From Zongyangia hominis (GTDB lineage: Bacteria > Bacillota > Clostridia > Oscillospirales > Ruminococcaceae), in NCBI RefSeq assembly GCF_014385095.1, contig NZ_JACRTC010000005.1, forward strand, positions 62,001 to 126,000: a stretch of DNA of 64,000 bases, given 5' to 3'. Both the position numbers and the translations under genes were made by a program. The notes under the pieces were generated by a model. That model was not told the origin of the DNA. It searched no databases and saw only the letters and a program-made list of their open reading frames with translations. The first letter of the stretch is position 1. Every line of letters begins with the position of its first letter. Shown one piece after another: positions 8,280-59,928 of this stretch.

Positions 8280-8310
8280 GCGCCCGGTCTTCTGGCCGGG
8301 CGCTTCTTTT
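8280..8310 (+). terminator. Expression-platform terminator of the SAM-I riboswitch
   Basis: GCGCCCGG (8280-8287) pairs with CCGGGCGC (8296-8303), followed by TTCTTTT. Confidence 0.85.
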
Positions 8311-8385
8311 GTGCCGCTTTTCGGCGCGGGAAGAGCCTGGCGCATGGCGGCGGATAAGGCCAAGCAGTCAGAAAGGAAGAAATCT

Positions 8386-9567: not shown

Positions 9568-9586
9568 AAAGAGGCGGTTGTTTATT

Positions 9587-9623
9587 AAAGGCGGGGAAAA
9601 CCGGAAGGTTTTCCCCGCCTTTT
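9587..9623 (+). terminator. Terminator of metK
   Basis: A 16-bp perfect stem of AAAGGCGGGGAAAACC with its complement around GGAA, ending TTTT. Confidence 0.93.
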
Positions 9624-9679
9624 GGCTCATTTTTCACCTTCCCCCGGCCTTTGACATACCATGGGTTGAGGTGATGAAA

Positions 9680-10048
9680 ATGAACGTTGTCTGGATGATC
9701 GTCATCGGGCTGCTGGCGCTGATGGGGCTCATTGAGGTGATTGAAAACATCCGGCGCTGGATGCTCCGGGGAAAGGGAAAGGCGCCCTGCTTTTTGTGTA
9801 TGCCGGTCTCCGGCGGGGAGGAGGCGCTGGAATATAACATCCGTAGTCTGATGCAGCGGGTGGAGGACAGCGCCTTTGCGGCGGGGGAGCCGGTATACCT
9901 AGTGGATATGGGACTCGACCCGGCGGGCTGGGAAATCTGCCAAAGGATGCAGGAGCAGTATCAGCAGCTTTCCCTGTGCGCAAAGGGGGAGCTGCTGGCG
10001 TTGTTGGAGTCAGGGTTCGTTTGCAAAGAGGCGGAAAATAGTTTATAA
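9680..10048 (+). CDS. Hypothetical membrane-anchored protein (122 aa)
   Basis: I do not recognise this family. One N-terminal hydrophobic helix (VVWMIVIGLLALMGLIEVI, residues 3-21) is followed by a basic stretch (RRWMLRGKGK) and a soluble domain of about 85 residues, so the bulk is predicted cytoplasmic. The block VYLVDMGLDPAGWEICQRM looks like a beta-strand then helix, and several cysteines are present. The start at 9680 suits the GAGGTG site at 9668-9673; ATG 9674 is too close. A hairpin separates it from recD2. Homologues may lie beside recD2 in relatives, but this cannot be tested here. Confidence 0.7.
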   Translation: MNVVWMIVIGLLALMGLIEVIENIRRWMLRGKGKAPCFLCMPVSGGEEALEYNIRSLMQRVEDSAFAAGEPVYLVDMGLDPAGWEICQRMQEQYQQLSLCAKGELLALLESGFVCKEAENSL

Positions 10049-10060
10049 TGCCAACAGAAT

Positions 10061-10112
10061 CAAAGGCCGGAGCACGGAGGCACAGGCTTCTGGGACGCCG
10101 GCCTTTGCCTTT
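10061..10112 (+). terminator. Possible terminator hairpin before recD2
   Basis: A perfect 10-bp stem CAAAGGCCGG (10061-10070) with CCGGCCTTTG (10098-10107) surrounds a 27-base loop; only CCTTT follows, so termination would be weak. Confidence 0.4.
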
Positions 10113-10155
10113 ATAAAGGCGGCCTAGAGAGCTAAGAGGAAAGCGGGGGAAGAGG

Positions 10156-12387: not shown

Positions 12388-12399
12388 GGAGGGTTTGCC

Positions 12400-13098
12400 A
12401 TGCTCGAGCGGCTGCTCACGGTTTTGTTTTGCAAGAGGTGCGCCCTATGTGACAAGGTCATCGCCCAAGAAGAGGAGCTCTGCGAGCTTTGCCGGGTGAA
12501 GCTTCCACGCATCGGATCCAACATCTGCCCCTTTTGCGGACGGGACCGGCAAAACTGCCATTGTGGGCTGGAACATTTTGCTTTTGACGGAGCGGCGGCG
12601 CCCCTTTACTACACCGGACAAGCCCGGCACCTCATTCATCAGTTCAAATACTACGGCCAGCGGCACCTGGCCGCCCCCTTGGCGCAGCTTATGGCCGGAC
12701 GGGTCAGAGAGGCCTTCCCGGGGGAGCGCTTTGACCTTTTGGTTCCCGTGCCCATGCACCGCTTGGAGCGCCGGGAGCGGGAGTATAACCACAGCGCCCT
12801 GCTGGCCCGGGAGCTTTCCCGGCGTCTGGGCGTGCCCTGTCGGGAAAAAGCGCTTTCAAAAGTCAGGGAAACCAGACGCCAGCGGGGACTGACGGGCGCC
12901 GAGCGGCGTCAGAATCTGCGGGACGCTTTCACTCCTGGGAAGGGCGTGACTCTCGCCGGCAAGACGGTGCTCCTCATCGACGACGTCCTCACCACCGGCT
13001 CCACGGCGGAGGAGTGCGCCAAGGCATTAAAAAGCGCGGGGGCCAAAGGCGTCTATTGCGTGACGGCCTGCGCCACCCTCTGGGAACGCGAAAAATAA
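12400..13098 (+). CDS. comF: ComF family phosphoribosyltransferase-like protein
   Basis: This 232-residue protein has the ComF layout. The N-terminal part has zinc-finger-like cysteine pairs (CKRCALC, CELC, CPFC, CHC within residues 11-56). The C-terminal type I PRTase domain has VLLIDDVLTTGST near residue 190. In competent bacteria ComF assists uptake of single-stranded DNA into the cytoplasm. comEC is also in this window, but no ComEA, ComFA or pilus genes are seen, so active transformation is not shown. It lies 12 bp after recD2, probably in one operon. Confidence 0.9.
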   Translation: MLERLLTVLFCKRCALCDKVIAQEEELCELCRVKLPRIGSNICPFCGRDRQNCHCGLEHFAFDGAAAPLYYTGQARHLIHQFKYYGQRHLAAPLAQLMAGRVREAFPGERFDLLVPVPMHRLERREREYNHSALLARELSRRLGVPCREKALSKVRETRRQRGLTGAERRQNLRDAFTPGKGVTLAGKTVLLIDDVLTTGSTAEECAKALKSAGAKGVYCVTACATLWEREK

Positions 13099-13131
13099 AA
13101 GGGCGTTGTTTGCCGGTCAACTGCCATAGAC

Positions 13132-13160
13132 TTGCAATCTTGGGGGAAACTACTTATAAT
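13132..13160 (+). promoter_or_regulatory. Sigma-A promoter upstream of the MreB-like gene
   Basis: TTGCAA (13132-13137), 17 bp, TATAAT (13155-13160). It predicts a leader of about 260 nucleotides before the gene at 13427. Confidence 0.75.
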
Positions 13161-13166
13161 TGTGTT

Positions 13167-13426
13167 TTATGGCATCTCCACTAAACCATGTGGGGAAAAC
13201 CGCCCTGGGCGCTATGGCCAATGCGCGAAAATAGCGTGAGGCTTTCATTGGCGGCCGTGCCAAAAAACGACGGGTACCGGACGCGCTCTAGGCCCTGGGC
13301 GTCATCAACGGCCGAGCGGGACGAAACGCTGAATGCAAAAACTAAAGCGGGGGACTACAGCCCTTGCTATGATAGATATATTTTTGAAATGAGGGCCAGT
13401 TTGGCCATGGAATAGGGGGAGCTACT
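13167..13426 (+). ncRNA. Long structured leader, candidate non-coding or cis-regulatory RNA
   Basis: This non-coding stretch holds consecutive hairpins: GCCAATG (13217-13223) with CATTGGC (13246-13252), an inner CGC/GCG pair, then GGCCGT (13253-13258) with ACGGCC (13308-13313) enclosing GACGC (13280-13284) and GCGTC (13299-13303). GCCCTGGGCG occurs twice (13202-13211 and 13292-13301). It fits no riboswitch class I know. No credible reading frame is present and no T-run terminator was seen. Confidence 0.45.
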
Positions 13427-14443
13427 ATGTCGTCAATGGATATTGGAATTGATCTGGGCACCACCACCGTCATCATCTACTGCAAAGACGAGGGCGCGGT
13501 GCTCAGCGAGCCGTCGGTGGTGGCGGTTAAACGCAAGACGGAGGAAGTCGTGGCGGTGGGCGAGGAAGCCTACAAGATGCTGGGCAAAGCGCCCGACCGG
13601 CTGGAAGTGATCAAGCCCATGAGCGACGGGGTCATCTCCGACTATTCGGCCACCGAGGTGATGATCAAGTTTTTCCTGCAAAAGGTCTTTGGCGGCAGCA
13701 TTTTGAAGCCCCGGGTCTGTCTGTGCGTCCCCTCCCAGATCACCGGCGTGGAGTCTCGGGCGGTGGTGGATTCCGCCGTTTCCGCCGGGGCCAGAAAGGT
13801 CTATCTGATTGAGGAGCCGGTGGCGGCGGCGCTGGGCGCGGGGCTCGACATCACCCATCCCAACGGCACTATGATCGTGGACGTGGGCGGCGGCACCACC
13901 GACATCGCGGTGCTCTCTCTCAACGGCATCGTCACCAAGCACTCCATCAAGGTGGCGGGGAACAAGCTAGACGACATGATCATCAAGCACATGAAGGACT
14001 TCCACAGCCTCCTCATTGGGGAGCAGACCGCCCGGCAGATCAAGACCGAGGTGGGCTGCGCTTATCCCAGGGAGGACGACAAAGAGGTGCTCGTCAGGGG
14101 GCGCAACTTACTCACCGGACTGCCCCAGCAGATCACCGTGGGCTGGAAGGAGATTTACGGCGCGATCAAGGACCCCATCGACGAGATCGTCCACGCCGCC
14201 CAGCAGGTCATCGAGCGCACGCCGCCCGAGCTGGTGGGCGACGTCTTCGAAAACGGCATGGTGCTCACCGGCGGCGGCTCTCTGCTCCACGGGCTGGACA
14301 CCCTGCTCACCGAGAAGACCCGCATCCAGGCGCGGATCGCCGACGACCCCATCCATTGCGTGGCCCGGGGCACCAGTATGGCCTTCGACTATCTGGACAA
14401 GCTCTACGACGGCTTTGTGGACACCGGCATCAAAATGAAATAA
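13427..14443 (+). CDS. MreB/Mbl-family actin-like cell-shape protein, divergent
   Basis: This 338-residue actin-fold ATPase polymerises under the membrane and directs wall synthesis. The phosphate 1 motif GIDLGTTTVIIY, IEEPVAAALGAGLDI, phosphate 2 DVGGGTTDIAVLSL and VLTGGGSLLHGLD are all intact. The N-terminus lacks the usual amphipathic helix and the sequence is clearly divergent from MreB and Mbl. mreC and mreD are not adjacent, so this may be an extra paralogue. The gene stands alone, with its own promoter, a long structured leader and a terminator. The ribosome binding site is GGGGGAG near 13414. Confidence 0.88.
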   Translation: MSSMDIGIDLGTTTVIIYCKDEGAVLSEPSVVAVKRKTEEVVAVGEEAYKMLGKAPDRLEVIKPMSDGVISDYSATEVMIKFFLQKVFGGSILKPRVCLCVPSQITGVESRAVVDSAVSAGARKVYLIEEPVAAALGAGLDITHPNGTMIVDVGGGTTDIAVLSLNGIVTKHSIKVAGNKLDDMIIKHMKDFHSLLIGEQTARQIKTEVGCAYPREDDKEVLVRGRNLLTGLPQQITVGWKEIYGAIKDPIDEIVHAAQQVIERTPPELVGDVFENGMVLTGGGSLLHGLDTLLTEKTRIQARIADDPIHCVARGTSMAFDYLDKLYDGFVDTGIKMK

Positions 14444-44932: not shown

Positions 44933-44947
44933 CTCAATATATCAAAT

Positions 44948-45054
44948 ACGCGAAACTCCCTACGCCGGTCTTAACCGTACAGGTTCAATGAGTAAGAGGA
45001 CAACACCTCACTCTCAGCCAATTTCATTGGCTCCCCAGTTCTTCTGCAGCTATT
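44948..45054 (-). promoter_or_regulatory. TPP riboswitch (THI element)
   Basis: Read on the minus strand: ACTGGGGAGCC, GGCTGAGAGTGAGG, TTGAACCTGTACGGTTAAGA and CCGGCGTAGGGAG, the conserved THI box. It controls thiSFGHE. Confidence 0.96.
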
Positions 45055-47297: not shown

Positions 47298-47325
47298 TTC
47301 GCATAAAAGTAACAAATAAATGACA
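47298..47325 (+). promoter_or_regulatory. Candidate OmpR-family (WalR/PhoP-like) direct hexamer repeats, gene A
   Basis: TTCGCA, GTAACA and ATGACA occur 11 bp apart; GTAACA (47309-47314) is 57 bp upstream of the -10. Only the central hexamer is a full match; the two outer ones match 4 of 6. Confidence 0.4.
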
Positions 47326-47424: not shown

Positions 47425-48570
47425 ATGAAAAGAGCTTTATCTCTTGTGCTGGCCGTTGTGCTGTGCTTCAGCCTGGCAGCAACTTCTTTTGCCATCGACA
47501 TCAAAGAGGGAATCGACTTTAAATACCTGACCAACGAGAACGGCGACAACTACGCTACCGAGAAAGACACCCCTCCCGACCCTGTCTTCGTCAATGGCGA
47601 CGATTTCTATGTGGTTCCTAAATCTGCCGGGGATGTCAACGTTTTCTCTTTCCCCGCAAAAGCTGAGGACAAGACCGGCGCTTGGACCGAGACCAAAATC
47701 ACCAACGTCGACATTGTCAGCGGTTCCACCACCATCAAAGCTGCTTTCTACTATGATAACAGCGGCACCAACCCCAAAAACAACTGGCTCATCCAGATTC
47801 GCCCTGAGGACCTGGCCGCTGTCAAAGGCTATGTTGTCAAGGTAAAAGTTTCTGCTGAGAGCACTTCCTTCACTCCCGCTGCCGATGAGAACAGCGAGGA
47901 TGTGACCAAGACCACCAAGTATGAGGATACCTTCTCCTTTACCGTCCAGGATAAGGACATGATCGAGAAGACCGACATTGATTATGCCAGACTCAACAAC
48001 AACAATGTTGTTGACACTGACAACAGATATGTCGTCTCCTACAAAGCCTTCCAGGCCATCAAGTCCGGTGAGAAGTTCACCTTCCCGTATGACGGCTACA
48101 AAGTCACTGTCGGCTCCGGCATCAAAGAGACCCTGAACTTCCGTGCCCAGCAGCAGTCCATCGACAAAGTTGCCGAGAAATACGGCGCGGACAGCATCCT
48201 GTCCCTGCTGGCTTTCGCTGACTCCAACAAACAGCCCGCCACCCTGAAGATCGATGTCGAGGCCACCGAGTTCAGCTCCACCCACAAAACCAACAAAGCC
48301 TATGTCTACAGAATCGAAGGCGACAAGCTGGTCCTCGTGACTGAGAATGCCACCTACGACTCTGCGAGAGAGTATATCTCCTTCGAGACTGACCGCCTGG
48401 GCGCATTCGTTATCTCTGCCAAAGAGATCAAAGGCGCTTCCAACGGTTCCGGCTCTGGTTCCACCACCGACAAAACGAACCCCAGCACTGGCGCTAACGA
48501 CGTTGTCGGCCTGGCCATCGCAGGTGCGGTCGTCGCAGCAGCCGCTGGCTTCGTTGCTCTGAAAAAATAA
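47425..48570 (+). CDS. Secreted NPxTG-anchored surface protein A (381 aa)
   Basis: Signal peptide residues 1-23 (MKRALSLVLAVVLCFSLAAT, cut after SFA). Then a low-complexity-free extracellular region, a shared paralogue domain from about 176 to 340 (IEKTDIDYARL ... TEFSSTHKTNKAYVYRIEGD ... LGAFVIS), a Ser/Gly linker (NGSGSGSTTDK), the sorting motif NPSTG near residue 352, a hydrophobic segment (VVGLAIAGAVVAAAAGFVAL) and a KK tail. This is the complete plan of a sortase substrate. Paralogous to B and C; more divergent. Codons differ from the flanking genes (many GCT, AAA, GAG). Confidence 0.88.
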   Translation: MKRALSLVLAVVLCFSLAATSFAIDIKEGIDFKYLTNENGDNYATEKDTPPDPVFVNGDDFYVVPKSAGDVNVFSFPAKAEDKTGAWTETKITNVDIVSGSTTIKAAFYYDNSGTNPKNNWLIQIRPEDLAAVKGYVVKVKVSAESTSFTPAADENSEDVTKTTKYEDTFSFTVQDKDMIEKTDIDYARLNNNNVVDTDNRYVVSYKAFQAIKSGEKFTFPYDGYKVTVGSGIKETLNFRAQQQSIDKVAEKYGADSILSLLAFADSNKQPATLKIDVEATEFSSTHKTNKAYVYRIEGDKLVLVTENATYDSAREYISFETDRLGAFVISAKEIKGASNGSGSGSTTDKTNPSTGANDVVGLAIAGAVVAAAAGFVALKK

Positions 48571-48598
48571 TCTGACGAAAGAACTTCGTTAAGATCAC

Positions 48599-48633
48599 AA
48601 AAAAGAGAGATGCGTAAGCATCTCTCTTTTTTT
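48599..48633 (+). terminator. Terminator of surface-protein gene A
   Basis: AAAAAGAGAGATGC pairs with GCATCTCTCTTTTTTT. Almost identical to the terminator after gene B. Confidence 0.93.
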
Positions 48634-48680
48634 GCGGTTTTTTGTACATCTTGCTGAAATAAGGAGGAGAAATGTTAGTT

Positions 48681-48697
48681 ATTACAGAAAAGTTACA
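48681..48697 (+). promoter_or_regulatory. Candidate OmpR-family direct repeat, gene B
   Basis: ATTACA (48681-48686), 5 bp, GTTACA (48692-48697); reverse complement is TGTAAC-N5-TGTAAT, a full match to the WalR consensus TGTWAH-N5-TGTWAH. Same distance from the -10 as in gene A. Confidence 0.55.
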
Positions 48698-48725
48698 AAA
48701 GAATAGAGAAATATCAAAAAAACTA

Positions 48726-48754
48726 TTGCAAATTTAGGAGGAGATGGCTATAAT
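48726..48754 (+). promoter_or_regulatory. Sigma-A promoter of surface-protein gene B
   Basis: TTGCAA (48726-48731), 17 bp, TATAAT (48749-48754). Confidence 0.85.
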
Positions 48755-48809
48755 AGGTTACAGACAAGGAAATCCTTGTTAGAAGAAAAATTTTTAGGAG
48801 GAAACACCA

Positions 48810-49850
48810 ATGAAAAAAGTACTTGCACTGGTACTGGCAGTTGTCATGTGCATTGGCATGGCTTCTGTAGCATTCGGTATCACCACTACCGAGAAAGTTA
48901 ACCACTTTACCGTTATGGACGCAAACGGTGAGATCAGCGCTGTAGACGCAGAGGGTACTGTCCAGTATGTCGCTGGCGACACTTTCTATGTCATTCCTTA
49001 TGCCACTGCAGACGGCGATTCCAACTTTGAAATCACCAAAGCAGAAGTTAAACAGGGTTCCACCACTGTTTACACCCCGGCTTTCTTCTTTGATGATGAA
49101 GGCAATCAGGCAAACAATGTCTGGATGGTTCAGATGAAGACCAAAGACATCGCTGCTGTCAAAGAGTATGACACTGTTCTGCATGTTGAAGGCAAACTGG
49201 AAGATGGCACTGTCATCAAAGGCGACCTGACTCTGGTTGTCAAAGACACTGATATGATCACCGAGAACGACATCAACAGAGCTCGCATCGACGACGCTGA
49301 TGTTGCTACCAACGGTAGATATGTTGTCTCCGCTGACGCTTTCAAAGCGATCAAATCCGGCGAGACCTTCAAATTCCCGTATGCTGGTTACACCCTGACC
49401 GTCGGCGCTGGCATCAAAAATGCTCTGAACTTCCGCGCTTCCGTTGAGAAGATCGACGCGATCGTTGAGAAATACGGCGAAGACAAAGTCCTGGGCGTCA
49501 TCGATTTCAAAGACAAGAACGATCTGCCTGTCGAAATCGGCGTTGACATGGAGTGCACCGAGTATTCCAACACCCATAAGACCAACGTTGCTTATGTTTA
49601 CAGAGTCGAAGGCGACAAACTGGTTCTGGTCACCGACAAAGCGACCTATGATGCAGCCAGAGAGACCGTTTCCTTCAAGACCAACAAACTTGGCACCCTG
49701 GTTATCTCCGCTGAGCCTCTGACCGATGCGAAAGCTGAGACTACTTCCAACAAAGCAAACCCGGGCACCGGCGCTAACGATGTTGTCGGCCTGGCAGTAG
49801 CAGGCGCAGTCGTTGCAATGGCAGCTGGCTTCGTTGCTCTGAAAAAATAA
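48810..49850 (+). CDS. Secreted NPxTG-anchored surface protein B (346 aa)
   Basis: Signal peptide MKKVLALVLAVVMCIGMASV, cut about residue 23. The mature part has an N-terminal domain (YVAGDTFYVIPYATADGDSN, about 50-69) and the shared C-terminal domain (MITENDINRARIDDADVATN to LGTLVIS). NPGTG follows near residue 317, then a hydrophobic helix and KK. B and C are close paralogues, nearly identical in signal peptide and C-terminal domain, so a tandem duplication. Ribosome site AGGAGG. Codon use (GTT, GCT, AAA, CTG) is that of a highly expressed gene and unlike GC3-rich neighbours. Confidence 0.9.
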   Translation: MKKVLALVLAVVMCIGMASVAFGITTTEKVNHFTVMDANGEISAVDAEGTVQYVAGDTFYVIPYATADGDSNFEITKAEVKQGSTTVYTPAFFFDDEGNQANNVWMVQMKTKDIAAVKEYDTVLHVEGKLEDGTVIKGDLTLVVKDTDMITENDINRARIDDADVATNGRYVVSADAFKAIKSGETFKFPYAGYTLTVGAGIKNALNFRASVEKIDAIVEKYGEDKVLGVIDFKDKNDLPVEIGVDMECTEYSNTHKTNVAYVYRVEGDKLVLVTDKATYDAARETVSFKTNKLGTLVISAEPLTDAKAETTSNKANPGTGANDVVGLAVAGAVVAMAAGFVALKK

Positions 49851-49879
49851 TCTGTCGAAATAACATTTCGATGTGATAA

Positions 49880-49914
49880 GAAAAAGAGAGATGCAAACGC
49901 ATCTCTCTTTTTTG
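49880..49914 (+). terminator. Terminator of surface-protein gene B
   Basis: AAAAAGAGAGATGC pairs with GCATCTCTCTTTTTT around AAAC. Confidence 0.93.
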
Positions 49915-50111
49915 TTGTTTTATAAGCGATTACCAATGATGTATTCAAAAGCCCTTCAACCAAAGTAGCTGCGTCGCTTTCCTTGGTTTCATACTGGTAA
50001 TATGCTCCCAAAGTACGAATAATATTTGATCAATCAGAATTAGAGAATTTGTGATGTTTCTTTCTTTTTAGACATTGTGAACAAATTATGACCACTCTTT
50101 TTAAATCATTG
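49915..50111. other. AT-rich intergenic DNA before surface-protein gene C
   Basis: No gene seen. The region drops sharply in GC toward the C promoter. Confidence 0.35.
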
Positions 50112-50128
50112 TTTACAAAAAGGTAACA
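50112..50128 (+). promoter_or_regulatory. Candidate OmpR-family direct repeat, gene C
   Basis: TTTACA (50112-50117), 5 bp, GTAACA (50123-50128); reverse complement TGTTAC-N5-TGTAAA fits the WalR consensus fully. It lies 47 bp from the -10, exactly 10 bp (one helical turn) closer than in A and B. Confidence 0.55.
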
Positions 50129-50145
50129 AACTGTATCAAGTCTAG

Positions 50146-50175
50146 TTAAACCTTTGGAAAATGAATGGTTATAAT
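50146..50175 (+). promoter_or_regulatory. Promoter of surface-protein gene C
   Basis: TATAAT at 50170-50175 is perfect; the -35 is poor (TTAAAC at 50146-50151, 18 bp spacing). A weak -35 plus a closer upstream box suggests an activator-dependent promoter. Confidence 0.6.
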
Positions 50176-50233
50176 AAGAGATGGAAAGGGAAACCCCTTC
50201 CAAAAATATTGAGAAAATCAGGAGGAAATACCA

Positions 50234-51298
50234 ATGAAAAAAGTATTAGCTCTGGTACTGGCGGTCGTCATGTGCATTGGCATGGCTTCTGTCGCATTCG
50301 GTATCAATGTTACCTCTCCCATTCATCACTTTACCATTCTGGGATCAGATGGTCAGCCAATCGATGTAGCTGCAGATGGTAATTACGCTTATGTAGCGGG
50401 TGACGCATTCTATGTTATCCCTTATGCTAGTGATGCGGCGGACTCTAATTTTGAAATTACAAAAGCAGAAGTCAAACAGGGGTCTACTACCGTTTATTCT
50501 CCAGCCTTTTTCTTCGATGATGAAGGCAATCAGCCAACCAATGTCTGGATGATTCAAATGAAGACCAAAGATATTGCCGCCGTTAAAGACTACGATATGA
50601 TACTTCACATTGAAGGCAAAGATGCTGATGGTAATGTCTATAAGGGCGATTTAAAGCTGGTTGTCAAAGATACCGGCATGATCGATGAAAACGACATCAA
50701 CAAAGCCCGTATCGACGATGCAGATGTAGCTACCAACGGCAGATACGTTGTCTCCGCCGACGCTTTTAAAGCCATCAAATCCGGCGAAAGCTTCAAATTC
50801 CCGTATGACGGCTACACCCTGACCGTCGGTTCTGGCATCAAAAATTCCCTCAATTTCCGCGCTTCTCTCGAGAAGATCGACAAACTGGTTGAGAAATACG
50901 GTGCCGACAAGATCCTCGGCTTCCTGGATTTCAAAGACAAAAACGATCTGCCTGTCGAGATCGGTGTTGAGATGGAATGCACCGAGTTTTCCAACACCCA
51001 TAAGACCAACAAAGCTTATGTATACAGACTTGAGGGCGACAAACTGGTCCTGGTCACCGATAAAGCGACCTATGACGCAGCCAGAGAGATGGTTTCCTTC
51101 AAAACCAACAAACTGGGCAGCCTGGTTATCTCTGCCGAGCCTCTGAGCAACGCTACCAATGCTTCCACCACTTCGACTGTGAAAAAACCCACCACTACCA
51201 AAAATAACCCGGGCACCGGCGCTAACGACGTTGTCGGCCTGGCAGTTGCTGGCGCTATCGTTGCAGCAGCAGCTGGCGCAGTAGCCCTGAAAAAATAA
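50234..51298 (+). CDS. Secreted NPxTG-anchored surface protein C (354 aa)
   Basis: Close paralogue of B: signal peptide MKKVLALVLAVVMCIGMASV, N-terminal domain with YVAGDAFYVIPYASDAADSN, shared domain (MIDENDINKARIDDADVATN to LGSLVIS). A Thr/Ser-rich linker (NASTTSTVKKPTTTK) follows, then NPGTG near residue 326, a hydrophobic segment and KK. The longer Thr-rich linker is the main difference from B and would help span the wall. Own promoter, ribosome site AGGAGG and terminator. The first part of the gene is more AT-rich than the last. Confidence 0.9.
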   Translation: MKKVLALVLAVVMCIGMASVAFGINVTSPIHHFTILGSDGQPIDVAADGNYAYVAGDAFYVIPYASDAADSNFEITKAEVKQGSTTVYSPAFFFDDEGNQPTNVWMIQMKTKDIAAVKDYDMILHIEGKDADGNVYKGDLKLVVKDTGMIDENDINKARIDDADVATNGRYVVSADAFKAIKSGESFKFPYDGYTLTVGSGIKNSLNFRASLEKIDKLVEKYGADKILGFLDFKDKNDLPVEIGVEMECTEFSNTHKTNKAYVYRLEGDKLVLVTDKATYDAAREMVSFKTNKLGSLVISAEPLSNATNASTTSTVKKPTTTKNNPGTGANDVVGLAVAGAIVAAAAGAVALKK

Positions 51299-51315
51299 GA
51301 AATCGCAATGAACCA

Positions 51316-51351
51316 TAAAAAAGGCAGCCGCATTTAGCGGCTGCCTTTTTT
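51316..51351 (+). terminator. Terminator of surface-protein gene C
   Basis: AAAAAAGGCAGCCGC pairs with GCGGCTGCCTTTTTT around ATTTA. Confidence 0.93.
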
Positions 51352-51432
51352 AGATTTATGGTGGACAAGGAAGAATGCTGCAGGATGCTCCATTTTTACC
51401 GAGCTTCTTTTAAAAAATTCAGAATTACGTCA

Positions 51433-51460
51433 TTGTATTGGGCACACGCGATGTTATAAT
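51433..51460 (+). promoter_or_regulatory. Promoter of secreted paralogue D
   Basis: TTGTAT (51433-51438), 16 bp, TATAAT (51455-51460). No hexamer repeat like those of A-C is seen upstream. Confidence 0.65.
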
Positions 51461-51495
51461 GGGAATGGAAAGATCAGGAGAAAGGATGGTGCATC

Positions 51496-52590
51496 ATGGT
51501 AAAAAAGACGGTGGCACTCCTTATGGCGGCGATACTGCTCATGCTTTGTGTCCTGCCAGCCAGTGCAATTTCGGTGGAGCAGGACATGTATCTGCTCTAT
51601 AAAAGTGATGAAAAGATGGACGAAAACGGCAATCGTTTTGTGGATTTGATCTTTTGCTATGTGGATGAAACAGGCAACAGCGTAAAGCTGACCACCTTTA
51701 ACCGCAAAGAGCCCGCCAACAGCAGTAAACCCGGGGACATTGTCAGTGCCGACGTCATCTTTGGCCGCAGCGCCTGTGAGGCCAAAGCCTTCTTTGACGG
51801 CGACCGAGGTTACTGGGTGGTCCGGCTGACGACCACCAATCCCACTGCCCTTGAAAGCATTCCCAAATTTGAAATTCAAGTCAGCGCCTCCCGGATTGTA
51901 GAGACGGAGAAGGGGGTCAAGAGGCTCAAATATAAGTTTGACGATATCAAGATGACGGAGCTCAACAAAGCAAGCGGCATCACCAATGGACAGGTTTTGT
52001 ACGCGCTTCAAAATAACGAAGGCGTATTGGAGGACCCGGAGTGCTCCAACGTGACAAAAGAGGGAATGAAGGCCGCCCTGGGTAAGGACATCACGTTTGA
52101 TTTTGAGGGTTACGAAGTGGGGTTCCAAAATAGCCAGATACAGGACGCTATCAACCTTTTCGCTGTCAAAAAGATGATCACACCGGTGAGCAAGCACTAT
52201 AACACCGACGGGATTCTCGCCACCATCATGTTCTGGGATACCCAGGAGCTCGCTTCGCCTGCCACCATCACGGTGGAGATGGATGAGTTTTCCGACCACC
52301 GGGAGGCTTACGCCTATGTCTACCGGTATGAAAACGGCAGGATGGCGCTCTACACCGACAAGGCGGCGTATTCCGACGACATGGACGAAGTGAGCTTTAC
52401 GACGGACAAACTGGGCTCCTTTATTGTGTCCTCCAAGCCGTTGGAGGAGCTGCCCGTCATCGATACCGGGGACCAGGAGGGCGACGATGAATACGCGACG
52501 CCTGAGGAAAAGCTGGTTTCCCGCGCACTGGAGGCCATGGATCGCGCGTTTTATATCTATAACGCCTATGAGCCCACAGCGGCTGTGTAA
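51496..52590 (+). CDS. Secreted paralogue D without a wall anchor (364 aa)
   Basis: A signal peptide (VALLMAAILLMLCVLPASA, cut near 24) precedes a mature protein whose C-terminal domain is homologous to A-C. FEGYEVGFQNSQIQDAINLF, then EMDEFSDHREAYAYVYRYEN and LGSFIVSSKPL line up with their blocks. After that, where A-C have NPxTG, a hydrophobic helix and KK, D has an acidic stretch and an amphipathic helix (EEKLVSRALEAMDRAFYIYN). It should therefore be released or held by other contacts. Codon use is that of the general genome, unlike A-C. Confidence 0.82.
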   Translation: MVKKTVALLMAAILLMLCVLPASAISVEQDMYLLYKSDEKMDENGNRFVDLIFCYVDETGNSVKLTTFNRKEPANSSKPGDIVSADVIFGRSACEAKAFFDGDRGYWVVRLTTTNPTALESIPKFEIQVSASRIVETEKGVKRLKYKFDDIKMTELNKASGITNGQVLYALQNNEGVLEDPECSNVTKEGMKAALGKDITFDFEGYEVGFQNSQIQDAINLFAVKKMITPVSKHYNTDGILATIMFWDTQELASPATITVEMDEFSDHREAYAYVYRYENGRMALYTDKAAYSDDMDEVSFTTDKLGSFIVSSKPLEELPVIDTGDQEGDDEYATPEEKLVSRALEAMDRAFYIYNAYEPTAAV

Positions 52591-52597
52591 GATGCAA

Positions 52598-52632
52598 ATG
52601 AAAAGCCCGCTCTTTCGAGCGGGCTTTTTTGC
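52598..52632 (+). terminator. Terminator of paralogue D
   Basis: AAAAGCCCGCTC pairs with GAGCGGGCTTTTTT around TTTC. Confidence 0.93.
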
Positions 52633-52682
52633 GTGGCGGCGCGGGCTTTGGATATCTGATTTTACCACACTCGAAAGGTAGA

Positions 52683-52714
52683 AACAGCCAGTCCCCTAAA
52701 AGGAGACTGGCTGT
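52683..52714 (-). terminator. Possible terminator of the pyk-sortase operon
   Basis: On the minus strand AACAGCCAGTC pairs with GACTGGCTGTT; only a short T-run follows. Confidence 0.55.
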
Positions 52715-52754
52715 TGTAATCGCATACGGCAGTGTGGCCGGGATGCGAGCAATC

Positions 52755-53615
52755 CTAGAACTGGGGCGCCTTGGGATTGGGATTTTTTTCGATGGAGACG
52801 GTGGCAGGGGCGTCCTCGTCGTTTCGCAGCAGGCGGGCCTGCACCACGAAGCGCTGGTCCTCCCGCATGCCGTATTTATAGGTACAGGTGGAGAGGGTGA
52901 TGATCTTGTCGGTGGCATTGACGTCTACGTCATAGTTATATTCGCTGCGTTCCCGGGCTTCGTTGAGAATGTCCATAAAGGTCAGATCCTCAGGATCGGT
53001 GCTGATGTAGGAAAAGTGGATGTCGGAATAGTAGACGGCAAAAATTTTGAAGGTCAGCTGGTCGTCTTCGGTGGTTAGATAGATATAGGGATGGTTTTCC
53101 GCAAAATCCTCGTTAAGGTATTTGAGCAGCTGGCCGAATTTTTTGCCGTGGACCTTGTTGTCATCCATGTTGTGTCCATAGATCACCGTATTGCGGGAAA
53201 AGAGGTTCCGCTCGCCAAAGGTGTTCTCATAGTCGGCGTAGTAGCAGCCGAAGAAATTGTACTGCTTGGTTTCATCCTTGCGCAGATAATAGTCGTTATC
53301 CGCCGCCTGGAGCACCGCGTCGTCAATGGTGGTGTCGGGGATGGACAGCCACGCCACGGTGTCGCTGTTGGAAGCCTTCATGTTCTCGAGCTTTTCCAGC
53401 GTGCCGGCGTCAGGGGGTACCACGTCCAGCTTGCCGTCGTCCTCGCTGGACACGGGCGTCTCGGTGGTGGTGGGCGGCGTCTGGGTGACAGGGGGAGTGG
53501 AGGAGGATTCCTCCTCCTTTTTTTGGCAGGATACGAAGGTGAAAAGGATGCAAAAGGCCAGCAACAGGGCCATGACCTTTCCGGCAAGTGGGAATTGGGA
53601 GCGGGTGCACCTCAT
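52755..53615 (-). CDS. Class B-type sortase, apparently a lipoprotein
   Basis: A 286-residue sortase: VIYGHNMDD holds the catalytic His near residue 147, TLSTCTY the Cys near 240 and DQRFVVQARLL the Arg near 256. The TLSTC motif and the long insertion before it fit class B. Instead of a simple membrane anchor, the N-terminus has a hydrophobic segment ending FVSC at about residue 31, a lipobox-like cysteine, followed by a Ser/Thr/Pro-rich linker. Class B enzymes typically cut NPxT-type motifs, matching NPxTG of the neighbouring surface proteins. ATG 53615 (AAAGGAG) is 19 bp downstream of pyk. Confidence 0.88.
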   Translation of the reverse strand: MRCTRSQFPLAGKVMALLLAFCILFTFVSCQKKEEESSSTPPVTQTPPTTTETPVSSEDDGKLDVVPPDAGTLEKLENMKASNSDTVAWLSIPDTTIDDAVLQAADNDYYLRKDETKQYNFFGCYYADYENTFGERNLFSRNTVIYGHNMDDNKVHGKKFGQLLKYLNEDFAENHPYIYLTTEDDQLTFKIFAVYYSDIHFSYISTDPEDLTFMDILNEARERSEYNYDVDVNATDKIITLSTCTYKYGMREDQRFVVQARLLRNDEDAPATVSIEKNPNPKAPQF

Positions 53616-53634: not shown

Positions 53635-55392
53635 TTAGAGTACCTGCGCGCTGGCGGAATTGCAGACAATACCGCGGCGCGCATCCACCGTGACGGAGGT
53701 TCCGTTGGTGAGGATGGAAACGGCGTTTTTGGCGCCCACGATGACGGGGATGTCCAGCGCCAGCCCCACAATGGCGGCGTGAGAGTTGCTGCCGTCAATC
53801 TCGGTGACAATGCCAGCGGCCTTCTTCATCAGGCTCAAAATATTGTTGGAGGTGCTGGGGATGACTAAGATGTCGCCGTCCCGGAATTTTTTGAGCGCCT
53901 CCTCCTCATTCTCCACCACGCACAGGTTGGCGCAGACCGAAGCCGAGCCGATGCCCACACCGGTGACCAGGATGTCCCCCACCACATGCACTTTGAGCAT
54001 GTTGGTGGTGCCGGAGATGCCCAGCGGCACGCCGGCGGTGATGACCACCAGATCGCCGTCCTTGACATAACCCACCTTTTTAGCCTGTTCCACCGAGTGG
54101 TCGAAGAGAACGTCGGTGTTCTTCTTCTCCTCGATGAGCAGGGGCAGGACGCCCCAGGACAGGGCCAGCTGCCGGTAGACATGGGGTTCCATGGTGCCGC
54201 CGATGATGGGAACCGACGGGCGGAATTTGGAGATCATCCGGGCGGTGGTGCCGGTCTTGGTTACAGTGATGATGGCGGAAGCGCCCAGGTCGTAGGCGGT
54301 GGTGCAGGTGGCGTGGGAGATGGCGTTGGTCACATCGGAAATGGGGTCCAAATCCCGGGTGTAGAACCGCTTTTTATAGTCGATATCCCGCTCGGCCCGC
54401 TCGGCAATCCGCGCCATGGTCCGCACCGCTTCCACCGGGTAGAGCCCGGCGGCGGTTTCGCCGGAGAGCATGATGGCGCTGGTGCCGTCGTAGATGGCGT
54501 TGGCCACGTCGGTGGCCTCGGCGCGAGTGGGACGGGGGTTCTTCATCATGCTGTCGAGCATCTGGGTGGCGGTGATGACCTGCCGCCCGGCGCTGTATCC
54601 CTTTTTGATCAGTTCCTTTTGGATGATGGGCACTTCCTCCAGGGGGATTTCCACGCCCATGTCGCCTCGGGCGATCATAATGCCGTCGGATACCCGGAGA
54701 ATTTCGTCGATGTTGGCCACGCCCTCGCCGTTTTCAATCTTGGCGATGATGCGGATGGAGCTGCAATGACGCTCGTCCAAAATCCTGCGGATCTCAAGGA
54801 TGTCGGCGGCGCTGCGGGTGAAGGATGCGGCGATAAAATCAAAGCCGTTGTCGATGCCGAAAAGAATGTCCTCCCGGTCCTTGGGACTGATGTAATCCAT
54901 GGAGATGCTCACCCCGGGGACGTTGACGCCTTTGCGGTCGGAGATGGTGCCGCCGTTGATGACCTTGCAGATGATGTCGGTGGCGGTGATCTCCCGGACT
55001 TTCAGCTCGATGAGGCCGTCGTCAAGCAGGATGCGGCTGCCCACTTCCACGTCGCTGACAAGCCCCGCGAAGGTGATGGAGACGATGGAAGCGTCGCCTT
55101 CCACCTGGCGGGAAGTCAGGGTGAATTGGTCGCCTGGTTTGAGGGTGACACGGCCTTCCTTGAAGGTGCCGATGCGGATCTCCGGCCCTTTGGTGTCGAG
55201 GAGCGCGGCGATGGGGAGCTGGAGCTCTTCCCGCAGCTCTTCCAATATATCCAGGCGCTTGCGGTGCTCGTCGTAAGTGCCGTGGGAAAAATTAAAGCGG
55301 GCGACGTTCATCCCGGAAAGGATGAGCTGCCTCACCGTTTCTTTGTCGTCGGTTGCCGGGCCGAGTGTGCAGATAATTTTTGTTTTGCGCAT
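53635..55392 (-). CDS. pyk: Pyruvate kinase with C-terminal PEP-utilizer domain
   Basis: Pyruvate kinase converts PEP and ADP to pyruvate and ATP. The 585-residue protein starts MRKTKIICTLGPATDDKETV and has the K+/Mg-site block FNFSHGTYDEH, LLDTKGPEIR and the active-site block MIARGDMGVEIPLEEVPIIQ near 240. A Bacillus-type extra C-terminal domain (about 475-585) carries SNSHAAIVGLALDIPVIVG. The longer frame upstream from 55464 is rejected, since GGGAGG precedes 55392. The sortase gene is 19 bp downstream on the same strand, an unusual partner. Confidence 0.96.
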   Translation of the reverse strand: MRKTKIICTLGPATDDKETVRQLILSGMNVARFNFSHGTYDEHRKRLDILEELREELQLPIAALLDTKGPEIRIGTFKEGRVTLKPGDQFTLTSRQVEGDASIVSITFAGLVSDVEVGSRILLDDGLIELKVREITATDIICKVINGGTISDRKGVNVPGVSISMDYISPKDREDILFGIDNGFDFIAASFTRSAADILEIRRILDERHCSSIRIIAKIENGEGVANIDEILRVSDGIMIARGDMGVEIPLEEVPIIQKELIKKGYSAGRQVITATQMLDSMMKNPRPTRAEATDVANAIYDGTSAIMLSGETAAGLYPVEAVRTMARIAERAERDIDYKKRFYTRDLDPISDVTNAISHATCTTAYDLGASAIITVTKTGTTARMISKFRPSVPIIGGTMEPHVYRQLALSWGVLPLLIEEKKNTDVLFDHSVEQAKKVGYVKDGDLVVITAGVPLGISGTTNMLKVHVVGDILVTGVGIGSASVCANLCVVENEEEALKKFRDGDILVIPSTSNNILSLMKKAAGIVTEIDGSNSHAAIVGLALDIPVIVGAKNAVSILTNGTSVTVDARRGIVCNSASAQVL

Positions 55393-55603
55393 ACAAAGAC
55401 CTCCCTTTTGGCGAGAGCCGCGAGGATGGGGTGAACATTCCATCAGAACCCCCGAGCCACACAACTCTCAGTTCTCACTATTTTAGCAGATTTACGGCGA
55501 TTTTTCTATCCTTTTGCCGTGTATGTAATCACTTTGAAAGAACTTTTCTTCCCCCTCTGGAAAGGGAACGCCCCGGCCGGCAAAAATTTTTTTCTGCCAA
55601 GCA
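55393..55603. other. Divergent intergenic region between pyk and the GntR gene
   Basis: No gene. A clear minus-strand promoter for pyk could not be assigned; only a TAAAAT-type -10 was noted. Confidence 0.35.
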
Positions 55604-55660: not shown

Positions 55661-55678
55661 TAGAACAGTGAGGTGAAC

Positions 55679-56053
55679 ATGGTGATCACACTGGATATGC
55701 ACAGCCGGGTGCCGATTTATGAGCAGCTCTGCCAGAGGGTGACGGAGCTGGTGGCGGCGGGCGCTCTGGAGCCGGGGGACCAGCTGCCGTCGGTGCGGCT
55801 GCTGGCCCGGGACCTGGGAGTCAACCCCAACACCGTCAATAAGGCTTACCAGGAATTGGAGCGCAAGGGCGTCATCTGTTCGGTGGCGGGGAAGGGGAGC
55901 TTCGTCTCCACGGCCCAGGAGGTTTCTATCGTTTTGCAAAAGAAGCTGCTAGAAGAATACGGCGGTATCTGCCAGGCGTGCAAAAAAGTGGGGATTCAGT
56001 CCAGTGCCTTGGCGGCTATCTTGGAACAAACTTTTGCACAGGAGGGAGAATGA
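55679..56053 (+). CDS. GntR-family (YtrA-type) transcriptional regulator
   Basis: A 124-residue protein with the N-terminal winged helix of the YtrA subfamily: VPIYEQLCQRVTELVAAGAL, then LPSVRLLARDLGVNPNTVNK and GVICSVAGKGSFV. The effector domain is reduced to a short helical tail. YtrA proteins repress their own ABC operon and often respond to wall-active antibiotics. ATG 55679 with GAGGTG is preferred. Its stop overlaps the next start (ATGA), and the operator lies at its own promoter. Confidence 0.92.
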   Translation: MVITLDMHSRVPIYEQLCQRVTELVAAGALEPGDQLPSVRLLARDLGVNPNTVNKAYQELERKGVICSVAGKGSFVSTAQEVSIVLQKKLLEEYGGICQACKKVGIQSSALAAILEQTFAQEGE

Positions 56054-56955
56054 GTATGATTGCGCTGGATCATTTGACAAAGACCTTTGGCAGGGAACGG
56101 GCGGTGGACGATTTGACCCTCACCGTCAAGGAAGGTTCCATCTTTGGGCTCATCGGCTCCAACGGCTCGGGTAAATCCACGGCGCTCCGGATGATCGCCG
56201 GCATCTACGCGCCGGACAGGGGACAGGTGACACTTTCAGACGCCCCTGTTTTTGATCATGAGCGGGCCAAGGAACAAATATTCATCATCTGCGACCAGCC
56301 CTTTATCCAGGCGGGAGAAAATTTGGAGGACCTGGCCCATTTTTATAGCCATATCTACCCGGGCTTCTCCTGGGATGACTATGAGGAGCTCTGCCAGGTC
56401 TTCGACATGGAGCGGAAGAAGCCCATCAATACCTTTTCCAAGGGCATTCGAAAGCTGGCCATGATCATCATCGCCCTGTCCTGTAATCCTCAGGTGCTGC
56501 TCATGGACGAATCCTTCGACGGGCTGGACATGGTGGTGCGGGCGGCGGTGAAAAAGCTGCTCATCGACCGGGTGGCCCGGCAGGAGATGACGGTGGTCGC
56601 CACCTCCCACAACCTCTATGAAATTGAGGAGCTGTGCGACCACGTGGCCATCATTCACAAAGGGAGGTTGATTTTGGAGCGGGACCTCGACGCCCTCAAG
56701 GAGGAATTTGTCCGGGTGCAGACCGCTTTTCGGGAGCCTCTGCCCGACGACGCCCTCGCCGGTATAGAGGTTATCAGTCGGGAAAGCCGGGGCAGCCTCC
56801 TCACCCTCATTGTCAAAGCGGGATTTTCCGAACTCAAAGAGCGGCTCGAACCGTATGGCCCCCTCTTTTTGGAGAACCTGCCGCTGACGCTGGAAGAAAT
56901 CTTTATAAAGGAAATGGAGGCGGTCGGCTATGACTACAAAAATATCACTTTCTAA
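56050..56955 (+). CDS. ABC transporter ATP-binding protein (YtrB-like)
   Basis: A 301-residue ATPase. Walker A GSNGSGKST is near residue 37, the Q-loop region CDQPFIQAGENL near 80, a weak signature NTFSKGIRKLAM near 132 and Walker B VLLMDESFDGLDM near 151. The order matches the GntR-associated ABC-2 type transporters. The signature (FSKGI) is the divergent form seen in that group. Translation is coupled to the GntR gene and its C-terminus overlaps the permease gene by 26 bp. Confidence 0.93.
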   Translation: MSMIALDHLTKTFGRERAVDDLTLTVKEGSIFGLIGSNGSGKSTALRMIAGIYAPDRGQVTLSDAPVFDHERAKEQIFIICDQPFIQAGENLEDLAHFYSHIYPGFSWDDYEELCQVFDMERKKPINTFSKGIRKLAMIIIALSCNPQVLLMDESFDGLDMVVRAAVKKLLIDRVARQEMTVVATSHNLYEIEELCDHVAIIHKGRLILERDLDALKEEFVRVQTAFREPLPDDALAGIEVISRESRGSLLTLIVKAGFSELKERLEPYGPLFLENLPLTLEEIFIKEMEAVGYDYKNITF

Positions 56956-59137
56956 CCAGCAGCGAACCGGTTTTTTGTTCCGCCATGCCGTCAAGCGGCT
57001 CAAAGGGGTGGGGTTCATTTCCTGTATTGTGTATCTGGCGGTCTTCACCATCCCCTTTATCATCCGCTCCGTCCAGGCCCAAGAGGAGTATTTTGCCAGC
57101 GAAGTGGGCAAAATCTACGGCTTCACCGGCGCACTACTGTTCATCCTGCCGGTAGTGATGCCCCTCTTTACCGGGGTCATGAGCTTCCAGTTCATGCACC
57201 AGGCCGACCGGGCCGACCTCTATTACAGCCTGCCGGTGCGGCGTCCCACCCTGTTTTTTACCCACTTCCTGGCGGGACTGACGGTGTCCATCCTGCCGCT
57301 GCTCGTCATCTATCTCCCCAGCGCCGTGATGGTGCTCATTAAAAATCCCTTTGGCATCACCCTCGTTTCCTTACTCACTGAGTTCTTGACATTGTGTCTG
57401 ACCCTATTCATCAGCTACACCCTGGTTTGCTTTATCGGTGTGTTTACCCCCACCGTCCTAGACCATGTGCTCTATACCGGCGGCATCGGCGCGGCCATTT
57501 CCCTGGGCATCGGCTACACCGTGCAGGCGCTCTCTCAGATGCTGGTGGGGTTTTCGGGCGGAGCGCTGCTGTTGAGGAACTTCGGGTCCCTCTGGTGCAA
57601 CCCCTTCCTGCTTAGCTACCGGATTTTCATCGACAACGACCGGTACCGCTGGCCGCTGCTCCTTTCCTTCCTTGCCCTGGCAGTTGTATGCCTCCTGCTC
57701 TCCGTCTTCGGCTTCTGCCGCCACGGCTGTGAGCGGGCGGGCCGTGTGGGAGGACGGACCCTGGTCAAAGAAATCTGTAAGTATGTGGGCGCCTACGTCG
57801 GCGGCCTACTGCTGAGCCTGGCGCTGGGGGGGATGACGGATCTCTCCCCGGGCGTTATGATCGTGGGACTGCTCTTGGGCTCCTTCATCGCCTACACCAT
57901 CATCGAGGCCGTCTCCATGCGCAGCTTTCGCACCTTCGGACGGAGCATGAAGGGGTACGCCGTGACGGCCGTCTGCCTGCTGGCCCTCTTTTCGGTGGCG
58001 CGCTTTGACCTCATGGGGTACCAAAATCGGGTGCCGTCCACCCAGCAGATCGCCAGCGTCTCCATCGACTATTTCGGCGTATCCGACACCCATGTGAGCC
58101 ATGGGGAAGGCAATCCCCGCCTCACCCTGGAAACCCCTGAGGCCATCGAAGCGGTGCGCAATCTCCACACCGGCCTCGTCGAGAGCCTGGTGCCCATGGG
58201 CGGCAGAGAGGCGGATTATTATTTTGGCGGCACCGAAATCGCCAAGACGGTGACGGTGTCCTACCATCTTAAGAATGGATTGACCCTACAACGGCGGTAT
58301 GAGAAGGTGATGAGGGCGGACTTCCCCTATTTTGAGGCGCTCTGTGTGGTGCCGGAATTCCGGCAGAAGACCGATCTTTCCGCTATGGTGGAGCCCAACC
58401 GCTTTAATTCCTTCCAGCTCTATAACGCTGTGGGGCAGAAGGCCGCGCTGATGAACCTGGACTTAGAAAAGCAGGCTGAACTCCTCGACGCCATCGCCAA
58501 GGACCGGGCTTCGGAAACGCCCCAGCAGTTTGCCCGGCCGCAAAGCCCCTCCCTCGGCAGTATTGTCATCACCGCTACCCCCTCCGCCTTGGGGGAAAAC
58601 CTGGCGCTTTTACAGAAAAACGGGCTCAATTCCTATCACGGGGTGGTGGTCATCGGCACACATTATGAAAACACCCTGGCCCTCTTAAAAAAGTGGGGCT
58701 TCGATCAGAATTTGGATCTGCCGTCCGGCCAAGTCAAAGTGGCCTATGTGGATTACAGCGGCACAATGTTCGGGCAGGAAACGCCTCTCTTTTTAAGCGA
58801 GCCCAATGGGGACAATGGATACCGCACCTCCATCGGCATGCTGGAAGAGGGCGCTTGGGGCAAGGAGCCGTCGTCTATTTTAAACCCCGAGGAAATCCAG
58901 GCGCTCTTGTCGTGCTCCTATCAGCAGTACACGAACGAGCAGGGCTATGTGGTGGCCTATGTCGTGGAGGGCGCCACCGAGGCGCAGATGCTCTTGATCC
59001 CCTATGAAAAGGCGCCCGAATTTCTCAAGAAAGCGCTCGACAACTATGAGGTGGATGTGACCAGTTCCTATTATGAGGGGACCCCGGCCGACACGGTGAA
59101 AACGCCTCCCATCACCGCACAAACCATCCGGGAATGA
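56930..59137 (+). CDS. ABC transporter permease with large extracellular domain
   Basis: A 735-residue membrane protein with about eight to nine hydrophobic segments in residues 25-370 and a roughly 350-residue soluble C-terminal part after the last helix. The early helices include GALLFILPVVMPLFTGVMSF. The sequence around residues 80-100 (HQADRADLYYSLPVRRPTLF) is typical of ABC-2 permeases next to GntR regulators. Substrate unknown; a role in cell-envelope stress is inferred from the ytr-like operon layout. Confidence 0.88.
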   Translation: MTTKISLSNQQRTGFLFRHAVKRLKGVGFISCIVYLAVFTIPFIIRSVQAQEEYFASEVGKIYGFTGALLFILPVVMPLFTGVMSFQFMHQADRADLYYSLPVRRPTLFFTHFLAGLTVSILPLLVIYLPSAVMVLIKNPFGITLVSLLTEFLTLCLTLFISYTLVCFIGVFTPTVLDHVLYTGGIGAAISLGIGYTVQALSQMLVGFSGGALLLRNFGSLWCNPFLLSYRIFIDNDRYRWPLLLSFLALAVVCLLLSVFGFCRHGCERAGRVGGRTLVKEICKYVGAYVGGLLLSLALGGMTDLSPGVMIVGLLLGSFIAYTIIEAVSMRSFRTFGRSMKGYAVTAVCLLALFSVARFDLMGYQNRVPSTQQIASVSIDYFGVSDTHVSHGEGNPRLTLETPEAIEAVRNLHTGLVESLVPMGGREADYYFGGTEIAKTVTVSYHLKNGLTLQRRYEKVMRADFPYFEALCVVPEFRQKTDLSAMVEPNRFNSFQLYNAVGQKAALMNLDLEKQAELLDAIAKDRASETPQQFARPQSPSLGSIVITATPSALGENLALLQKNGLNSYHGVVVIGTHYENTLALLKKWGFDQNLDLPSGQVKVAYVDYSGTMFGQETPLFLSEPNGDNGYRTSIGMLEEGAWGKEPSSILNPEEIQALLSCSYQQYTNEQGYVVAYVVEGATEAQMLLIPYEKAPEFLKKALDNYEVDVTSSYYEGTPADTVKTPPITAQTIRE

Positions 59138-59283: not shown

Positions 59284-59928
59284 ATGACAAACTTCCGCTA
59301 CCTGGATATGGATGCCTATCCGAGAAAACAGCACTTTGCGTATTTTCATAGCCTCGCTTACCCTTACGTGGGGGTGACCGCCAATGTGAAGATCACCGCC
59401 TTAAAAGCGGGTGCCAAGGAGAAGGGATGGCCCTTCTTCCTCACCTTCTGCTATTGTGCGGCCAATGCGGCCAACGAGGTCCCGGAATTTCGCCAGAGAA
59501 TTGAGGGCGACCGCATCATCGAATACGACCGGTGTAAGACCTCCCATACCGTGGCCCTGGACGACGGCACTTACTGCTACTGCACCCTGGACAGCAGCCT
59601 GCCCTTTCACGAATACCTGACCTATGCCGTGCGGGCCCAGGAGGACGCTAAGCGCGCAAAGCGGGTGGAGGATGATGAGGATGTCAGGAGCCTCTTTTTT
59701 ATCTCCTCTCTGCCATGGCTCACCTACACGTCGTTAGTGCAGCCGGTCCCCCTGCCCGCCGACACGAACCCCAGAATCACTTGGGGTAAGTTTTTTAAAG
59801 AGAGGGGGGAGATCATGATGCCGGTCTCCGTTTTGTGCCACCACGCCCTCGTAGACGGGCTGCACGCCCGTTTCTATGAGGCGCTGGACCGGCAGATACA
59901 GGCCCTGTGCGAAGAAGCCTCGGTATAA
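59284..59928 (+). CDS. Chloramphenicol acetyltransferase-like protein
   Basis: The 214-residue protein has the CAT fold and length of type A enzymes. The catalytic His motif reads CHHALVDGLHARFYEALD near residue 187 (HxxxDG), and RKQHFAYFHSLAYPYVGVTA is the N-terminal family block. Real CAT would inactivate chloramphenicol, but chromosomal copies in anaerobes without mobile neighbours are common and often not linked to resistance. It stands alone with promoter and GGAGGG ribosome site. Confidence 0.87.
   Translation: MTNFRYLDMDAYPRKQHFAYFHSLAYPYVGVTANVKITALKAGAKEKGWPFFLTFCYCAANAANEVPEFRQRIEGDRIIEYDRCKTSHTVALDDGTYCYCTLDSSLPFHEYLTYAVRAQEDAKRAKRVEDDEDVRSLFFISSLPWLTYTSLVQPVPLPADTNPRITWGKFFKERGEIMMPVSVLCHHALVDGLHARFYEALDRQIQALCEEASV

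Follow-up and report, generated by a model that had tools for sequence, protein, structure and literature searches.

A 64,000-nucleotide stretch of Zongyangia hominis DNA (hereafter the window) carries four consecutive genes for secreted proteins, here termed A to D, followed by an oppositely oriented gene for a class B-type sortase (Table 1). The species is placed in the family Oscillospiraceae, and its type strain is described, in the available text of PMC8140505, as a rod isolated from human faeces. Judged by their sequences, A, B and C are secreted paralogues with NPxTG-type anchor signals, and the sortase is predicted to be a lipoprotein. We favour, with moderate confidence, the interpretation that this is a chromosomal cell-wall display locus of Z. 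hominis-type Oscillospiraceae, in which A, B and C would be anchored likeliest by the neighbouring lipid-held sortase.

Table 1. Features of the surface-protein array, its sortase, their putative regulatory sites and adjoining genes, in positions of the window (pLDDT, predicted local distance difference test; aa, amino acids; nt, nucleotides).
Feature	Position	Strand	Description
A	47425..48570	+	predicted secreted surface protein, 381 aa; NPSTG, hydrophobic segment and KK
B	48810..49850	+	predicted secreted surface protein, 346 aa; NPGTG, hydrophobic segment and KK
C	50234..51298	+	predicted secreted surface protein, 354 aa; NPGTG, hydrophobic segment and KK; model pLDDT 76.7
D	51496..52590	+	predicted secreted paralogue, 364 aa, without sorting motif; low-confidence C-terminal helix 336-351
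Sortase	52755..53615	-	class B, 286 aa, predicted lipoprotein (lipobox FVSC, Cys30); catalytic His148, Cys244, Arg255
WalR/PhoP-type box upstream of A	47309..47325	+	1 mismatch
WalR/PhoP-type box upstream of B	48681..48697	+	exact
WalR/PhoP-type box upstream of C	50112..50128	+	exact
Pyruvate kinase (pyk)	53635..55464	-	Pfam PK; 19 nt between pyk and the sortase start
GntR-type regulator, ATP-binding cassette (ABC) ATPase, large membrane protein	55673..59137	+	recurring neighbour set

A scan of the entire window for sorting signals, in six frames and with a C-terminal rule, recovered A, B and C; the remaining hits were short or antisense frames that we judged unconvincing. Signal peptide, motif, hydrophobic segment and basic tail are all present in the sequences of A, B and C and not in that of D: A ends in NPSTGANDVVGLAIAGAVVAAAAGFVALKK, B and C in NPGTGANDVVGLAVAG...ALKK, and D has no such tail. 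Identity to A is 49% for B, 51% for C and 26% for D. A previous sequence-only reading of this DNA had proposed three tailed paralogues, an untailed D and a nearby sortase, and open reading frames (ORFs) with these properties do lie where it placed them. It had also not recognised the substrate domain as a described adhesin or S-layer family, which agrees with our searches, in which the mature bodies of A to D matched no Pfam or NCBIfam family above cut-off outside the tail, S-layer and adhesin families included. The nearest fold, the Ankyrin ZU5 domain, shares 9% identity at a score little above the 7-8 typical of models without a clear match, and implies no function. Z. hominis encodes at least two more paralogues with the same tail, P0011 (345 aa) and P0015 (364 aa), outside the window but apparently on the same contig, to judge by its identical length of 222,074 bases, and D returned three matches in a protein search, itself included. 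By eye, a hairpin and T-run can be seen after each of A to D, and each gene is preceded by an upstream region of its own, so we read them as single-gene units.

The window sortase is by its model matches a class B enzyme, narrowly above the cut-off of the class B model TIGR03064 (159.3 versus 153.75 bits) and clearing that of Pfam Sortase (50.1 versus 26.6 bits). His148 (in YGH), Cys244 (in TLSTC) and Arg255 are invariant in all 36 rows of the sortase alignment, A5, which includes the window sortase. Among solved structures, the closest to it are Lmo2181 and Sortase B / BA4783, which we take from their names to come from Listeria and B. anthracis, respectively. The earlier proposal of a class B sortase next to NPxTG-tailed paralogues holds at the level of model match and catalytic residues; the sortase gene is convergent with the array. 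According to the available text of PMC11987632, variants of NPXTG or NPQTN serve as targets of class B sortases, with NPKTG accepted by the SrtB of B. anthracis; NPxTG is also among the anchor motifs given in the accessible parts of PMC8286594 and PMC9210967. The window enzyme shares with its class the model match and the catalytic His, Cys and Arg, and cleavage of an NPxTG-type motif would fit the targets known for the class. It departs from the class norm in that a predicted lipid anchor replaces the usual N-terminal transmembrane helix and in that pyk adjoins it. No Isd-type haem family was found among the 13 scanned proteins of the locus.

The array and its sortase form a locus that is, in the genome segments compared, conserved among relatives, and this is one of the conclusions that we hold most firmly. 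All genome-wide figures below rest on relatives, namely 197 genomes from the family of Candidatus Pararuminococcus gallinarum (G001), the closest relative genome searched. Twenty regions around lipo-type sortases were fetched and read. In four of them (G005, G078, G086 and G114), arrays of three to five ORFs of the A-C surface-protein family (some of those in G086 being pieces) point towards the lipo-type sortase in the same order as in the window: array, sortase, pyk and, on the opposite strand, GntR and ABC genes. A fifth, G001 (contig C84), has D, sortase, pyk, GntR and ABC. P0122 (the sortase) and P0242 (D) each lie on a 5263-base contig, probably the same one. The sortase-substrate cluster of the sequence-only reading accordingly recurs beyond Z. 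hominis. In the other 15 of the 20 regions no family gene was seen near the lipo-type sortase; a pyk homologue occurs at 13 of the 20 loci.

The family also tracks the enzyme at the scale of whole genomes. Matches to the family profile A2 (expectation value, E, ≤ 0.001) occur in 45 of the 197 genomes, and 52 have a close lipo-type sortase, taken as a best A5 match with E no higher than 1.1e-60; 38 genomes have both, 14 the enzyme only, 7 the family only and 138 neither. When only genomes in which a lipobox was actually read are counted, the corresponding numbers are 30, 6, 15 and 146, with genomes whose matches were weaker than those read entered as lacking it, and with G101, whose weaker match does carry a lipobox (L153), excluded from that count; it would fall under enzyme only.

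On this evidence the pairing of the lipo-sortase with A to C is likely. The most serious competing possibility, which we consider unlikely but not by a wide margin, is that the wall anchoring of A to C is the work of a different class B sortase, a housekeeping enzyme with a membrane anchor, while the lipo-sortase serves other substrates or another reaction. Several observations lean that way and weigh on our interpretation. The class B model is matched at E ≤ 0.001 in 191 of the 197 genomes (above cut-off in 116), so another sortase could serve A to C, and G001 alone has four sortases, three of them matching that model at the same threshold, together with nine NPxTG-tail matches. In G163 (contig C37; L186, 5136-10659), frames of 1103 and 670 aa with class-B-like sortase domains adjoin a family gene that lacks NPxTG. 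The general NPxTG tail model, matched at E ≤ 0.01 in 113 of the 197 genomes (above cut-off in 72), is not enriched with lipobox sortases, occurring in 23 of 36 genomes that have them and 90 of 161 others. The co-occurrence counts ignore descent, their thresholds were picked after the scores had been seen, and both query alignments, A2 and A5, were built from relatives of the window's own proteins. Nor is the arrangement tight everywhere: the array is separated from the sortase by two other genes in G005 and by a single one in both G086 and G114, other genes are interspersed among the array members in G078, and across 14 relatives the nearest family match is within 7 kb of the sortase in five, 15 kb to 1.25 Mb away in seven and absent from the contig in two. 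At the far end of that range, G185 has two family genes beside a GntR/ABC set of the same kind, with the sortase 1.25 Mb away. Against service by another enzyme stand the arrays that point to the lipo-sortase in the window and four relatives, with D in a fifth, and the presence of the lipo-type enzyme in 38 of the 45 family-positive genomes. What these data do not sustain is the description of the locus as self-contained, with one enzyme and three substrates, which is too simple given the extra paralogues, the four sortases of G001 and the wide distribution of NPxTG tails; the neighbourhood of the G163 gene points the same way. Four features go beyond that earlier reading: the lipobox, the putative regulatory box, the pyk neighbour and the tail-less family members.

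It is improbable that A to C remain tail-anchored membrane proteins with an uncut NPxTG, although the curated tail models leave some room for this. A passes PF00746 (20.4 versus a cut-off of 20 bits) and TIGR01167 (18.5 versus 15.9), but B and C fall below cut-off on every curated tail model (on PF00746, 9.1 for B and 14.4 for C; on TIGR01167, 12.3 for B), and none of the three reaches the 23.5 bits required by NF033846 (Rumino_NPXTG), on which A scores 17.5 and B and C have no listed match. A to C have the NPxTG, hydrophobic segment and basic end of the NF033846 proteins and differ from them in their subthreshold scores and in a body that lies outside that 30-position model. In addition, NPxMG replaces NPxTG in some relatives. 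Yet a 20-member close alignment of the family shows no variation at N, P, T or G of the motif, and the 69 distinct stop-closed family ORFs comprise 37 with NPxTG and tail, 5 with NPxMG and tail, 14 ending in NPxTGR and 13 with none of these. A plain membrane tail would not explain a family in which 14 members keep the motif after the hydrophobic tail is gone.

The tail-less ends were followed with an NPxTGR-stop DNA pattern, which gave 18 matches in 9 of the 197 genomes and one in a reversed control. Fourteen of the 18 are family proteins, from G005, G063, G065, G086 and G155: 13 matched the family profile, and L165, shortened by the start rule, was recognised separately. The other four lie in frames of 3-62 residues, and the lysine version of the pattern returned six matches, all in frames of 3-14 residues. 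Among the 13 ORFs without any of the listed ends, four end, by our reading, two or three residues beyond NPxTG (two in G185, one in G104 and one in G054), and the rest comprise L033, with a degenerate anchor, D and its G001 counterpart, and mixed sequences or fragments. Proteins ending in NPxTGR were noted at L102 (6427 and 7699), L103 (741, 2002 and 3301), L162-L165, L171, L174, L176 and L178; at L102 6427, a tail-like stretch continues in frame beyond the stop. The ends with NPxTG and two or three further residues are at L012 (G185), L025 (G054) and L026 (G104), and at L105 (G078, 1053-14027) NPxMG stands in place of NPxTG before a hydrophobic tail. A lipobox sortase was present in all eight genomes with tail-less ends, in a sampling that favoured such genomes. 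The proteins ending in NPxTGR or in NPxTG plus two or three residues are possible tail-less sortase substrates. In the available portion of PMC11987632, B. anthracis SrtB is reported to have weak activity on short, soluble peptides carrying NPKTG, highest when the motif is surrounded by acidic residues; because the assayed peptides were soluble, a membrane tail would not be strictly needed for SrtB catalysis, which has no bearing on wall anchoring in cells.

Textbook sortases are membrane-helix enzymes acting on membrane-tailed substrates. The predicted mature window sortase starts at Cys30, after ...FCILFTFVSC, and continues into a tether in which Ser, Thr, Pro and Glu are abundant. Lipoboxes were called with a PS51257-like rule (PROSITE), with shuffled N-termini as the null. 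The lipobox Cys is invariant in the 36 rows of A5, partly by selection, as these rows were hand-picked from sortase homologues. Among 63 A5 matches read from the family's genomes, at one or two per genome, 37 have a lipobox (25 of the top 30, which come from one genome each, and 12 of the 33 others). By comparison, among the top 30 canonical class B loci, a set labelled membrane-anchored as a whole, 29 were readable and the single one flagged by the rule proved on inspection to be a transmembrane stretch. In a quick tree of the 92 catalytic domains that passed length and match filters, built without the N-termini and with Shimodaira-Hasegawa-like approximate likelihood ratio test (SH-aLRT) support only, all 38 lipobox rows fall within one 62-row set (support 97) that contains no canonical class B row, and the lipobox label requires 9 changes versus 28.4 for shuffled labels. 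By this tree, lipobox sortases fall within a subclade apart from canonical class B, a result that we count among the firmest presented here. The set also holds 18 rows without a lipobox and 6 ambiguous ones; the lipobox is therefore not universal in the subclade, a further item on the debit side, and its distribution suggests that lipid anchoring marks the subclade with losses or repeated gains. That the lipobox is an artefact, an uncleaved transmembrane N-terminus with a chance cysteine, is very improbable: it was called by rule, and some subclade members have plain transmembrane N-termini, but a Cys ends the hydrophobic stretch in 104 of the 117 homologues of at least 260 residues (from the best 120 of 311, the window's own included) versus 2.5% of shuffled N-termini, and 101 of these 104 have no second Cys in the next 45 residues, with the following 40 rich in Ser, Glu and Pro.

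These observations permit a broader proposal, which we advance tentatively and do not regard as the probable outcome. A lipid-tethered class B sortase may define a display system in which the membrane tail of the substrate is optional: the long-tethered enzyme would catch tail-less proteins during export and fix them to the wall, so that one family could yield tailed, tail-less and motif-free (D-like) surface proteins. The window holds only the tailed and motif-free forms. Among the titles and abstract openings listed in our literature searches, none described a lipoprotein sortase or tail-less substrates. A predicted lipoprotein lineage of class B sortases, together with an undescribed surface family whose tail-less relatives keep the motif, makes the need for a substrate membrane tail directly testable.

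A putative regulatory box precedes A to C and many other family genes, and the association is likewise among our strongest claims. Visual inspection of the DNA preceding genes in the window and in L103 first drew attention to pairs of the TTACA type, which were tested afterwards. The exact form, DTWACA-N5-DTWACA, occurs twice in the window (0.03 expected), before B and C. Allowing one mismatch gives six sites, the exact pair among them, against 1.44 expected, and 1 of 100 shuffles reached six. No box precedes D, the best upstream site of which has four mismatches. From 107 family ORFs in the fetched loci and the window, 61 with a readable start and upstream region were retained after removal of duplicates, the discovery genes included; 20 of them have an exact box, located 78-159 nt from the gene start, and 38 have one with at most one mismatch, compared with 0 and 7 of 538 other mechanical ORFs. 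Single-base shuffles of the family upstream regions gave 0.08% exact and 3.5% with one mismatch, and the opposite strand 1 and 4 of the 61. The box is the reverse complement of TGTWAH-N5-TGTWAH, given as the WalR consensus in the accessible part of PMC9210968. That source, in the same part, also places putative WalR sites about 100 nt upstream of the C. difficile sortase substrate cd630_27680, which resembles A to C as a clostridial sortase substrate with such sites and differs as a predicted NlpC/P60 hydrolase. Regulator binding is putative here. The box also resembles the B. subtilis PhoP box, so either WalR or PhoP may be the regulator. The sorting motif of cd630_27680 differs from that of A to C.

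From the tails, the sortase class, the lipobox, the box and the conserved neighbourhood, all read in the DNA, we infer a scheme of lipidation, cleavage, enzyme-substrate pairing, transcription units and regulation, together with whatever the displayed proteins may bind. A to C, along with two or more paralogues encoded elsewhere, would be exported by the general secretion route and held briefly by the hydrophobic segment and KK before cleavage at NPxT|G and attachment to peptidoglycan. These last steps would most likely be carried out by the neighbouring class B sortase, sitting on the outer face of the membrane through a lipidated Cys30 and a long Ser/Glu/Pro-rich tether in place of a transmembrane helix. 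D, which shares the body and lacks the motif, would probably be released or loosely held. Each of A to C probably has its own transcript, controlled by a WalR/PhoP-type response regulator. Such control would tie the coat to the state of the envelope and suggests that a gut commensal has a surface coat governed by a response regulator.

With the same strand and an intergenic distance of only 19 nt, the sortase and pyruvate kinase genes probably form one operon and would be co-transcribed. Elsewhere in the window, positions 59284-59928 encode a protein of the chloramphenicol acetyltransferase Pfam family (95.2 bits), and riboswitches for flavin mononucleotide (FMN; 7279-7420), S-adenosylmethionine (SAM; 8164-8263) and thiamine pyrophosphate (TPP; 44940-45047) were recognised.

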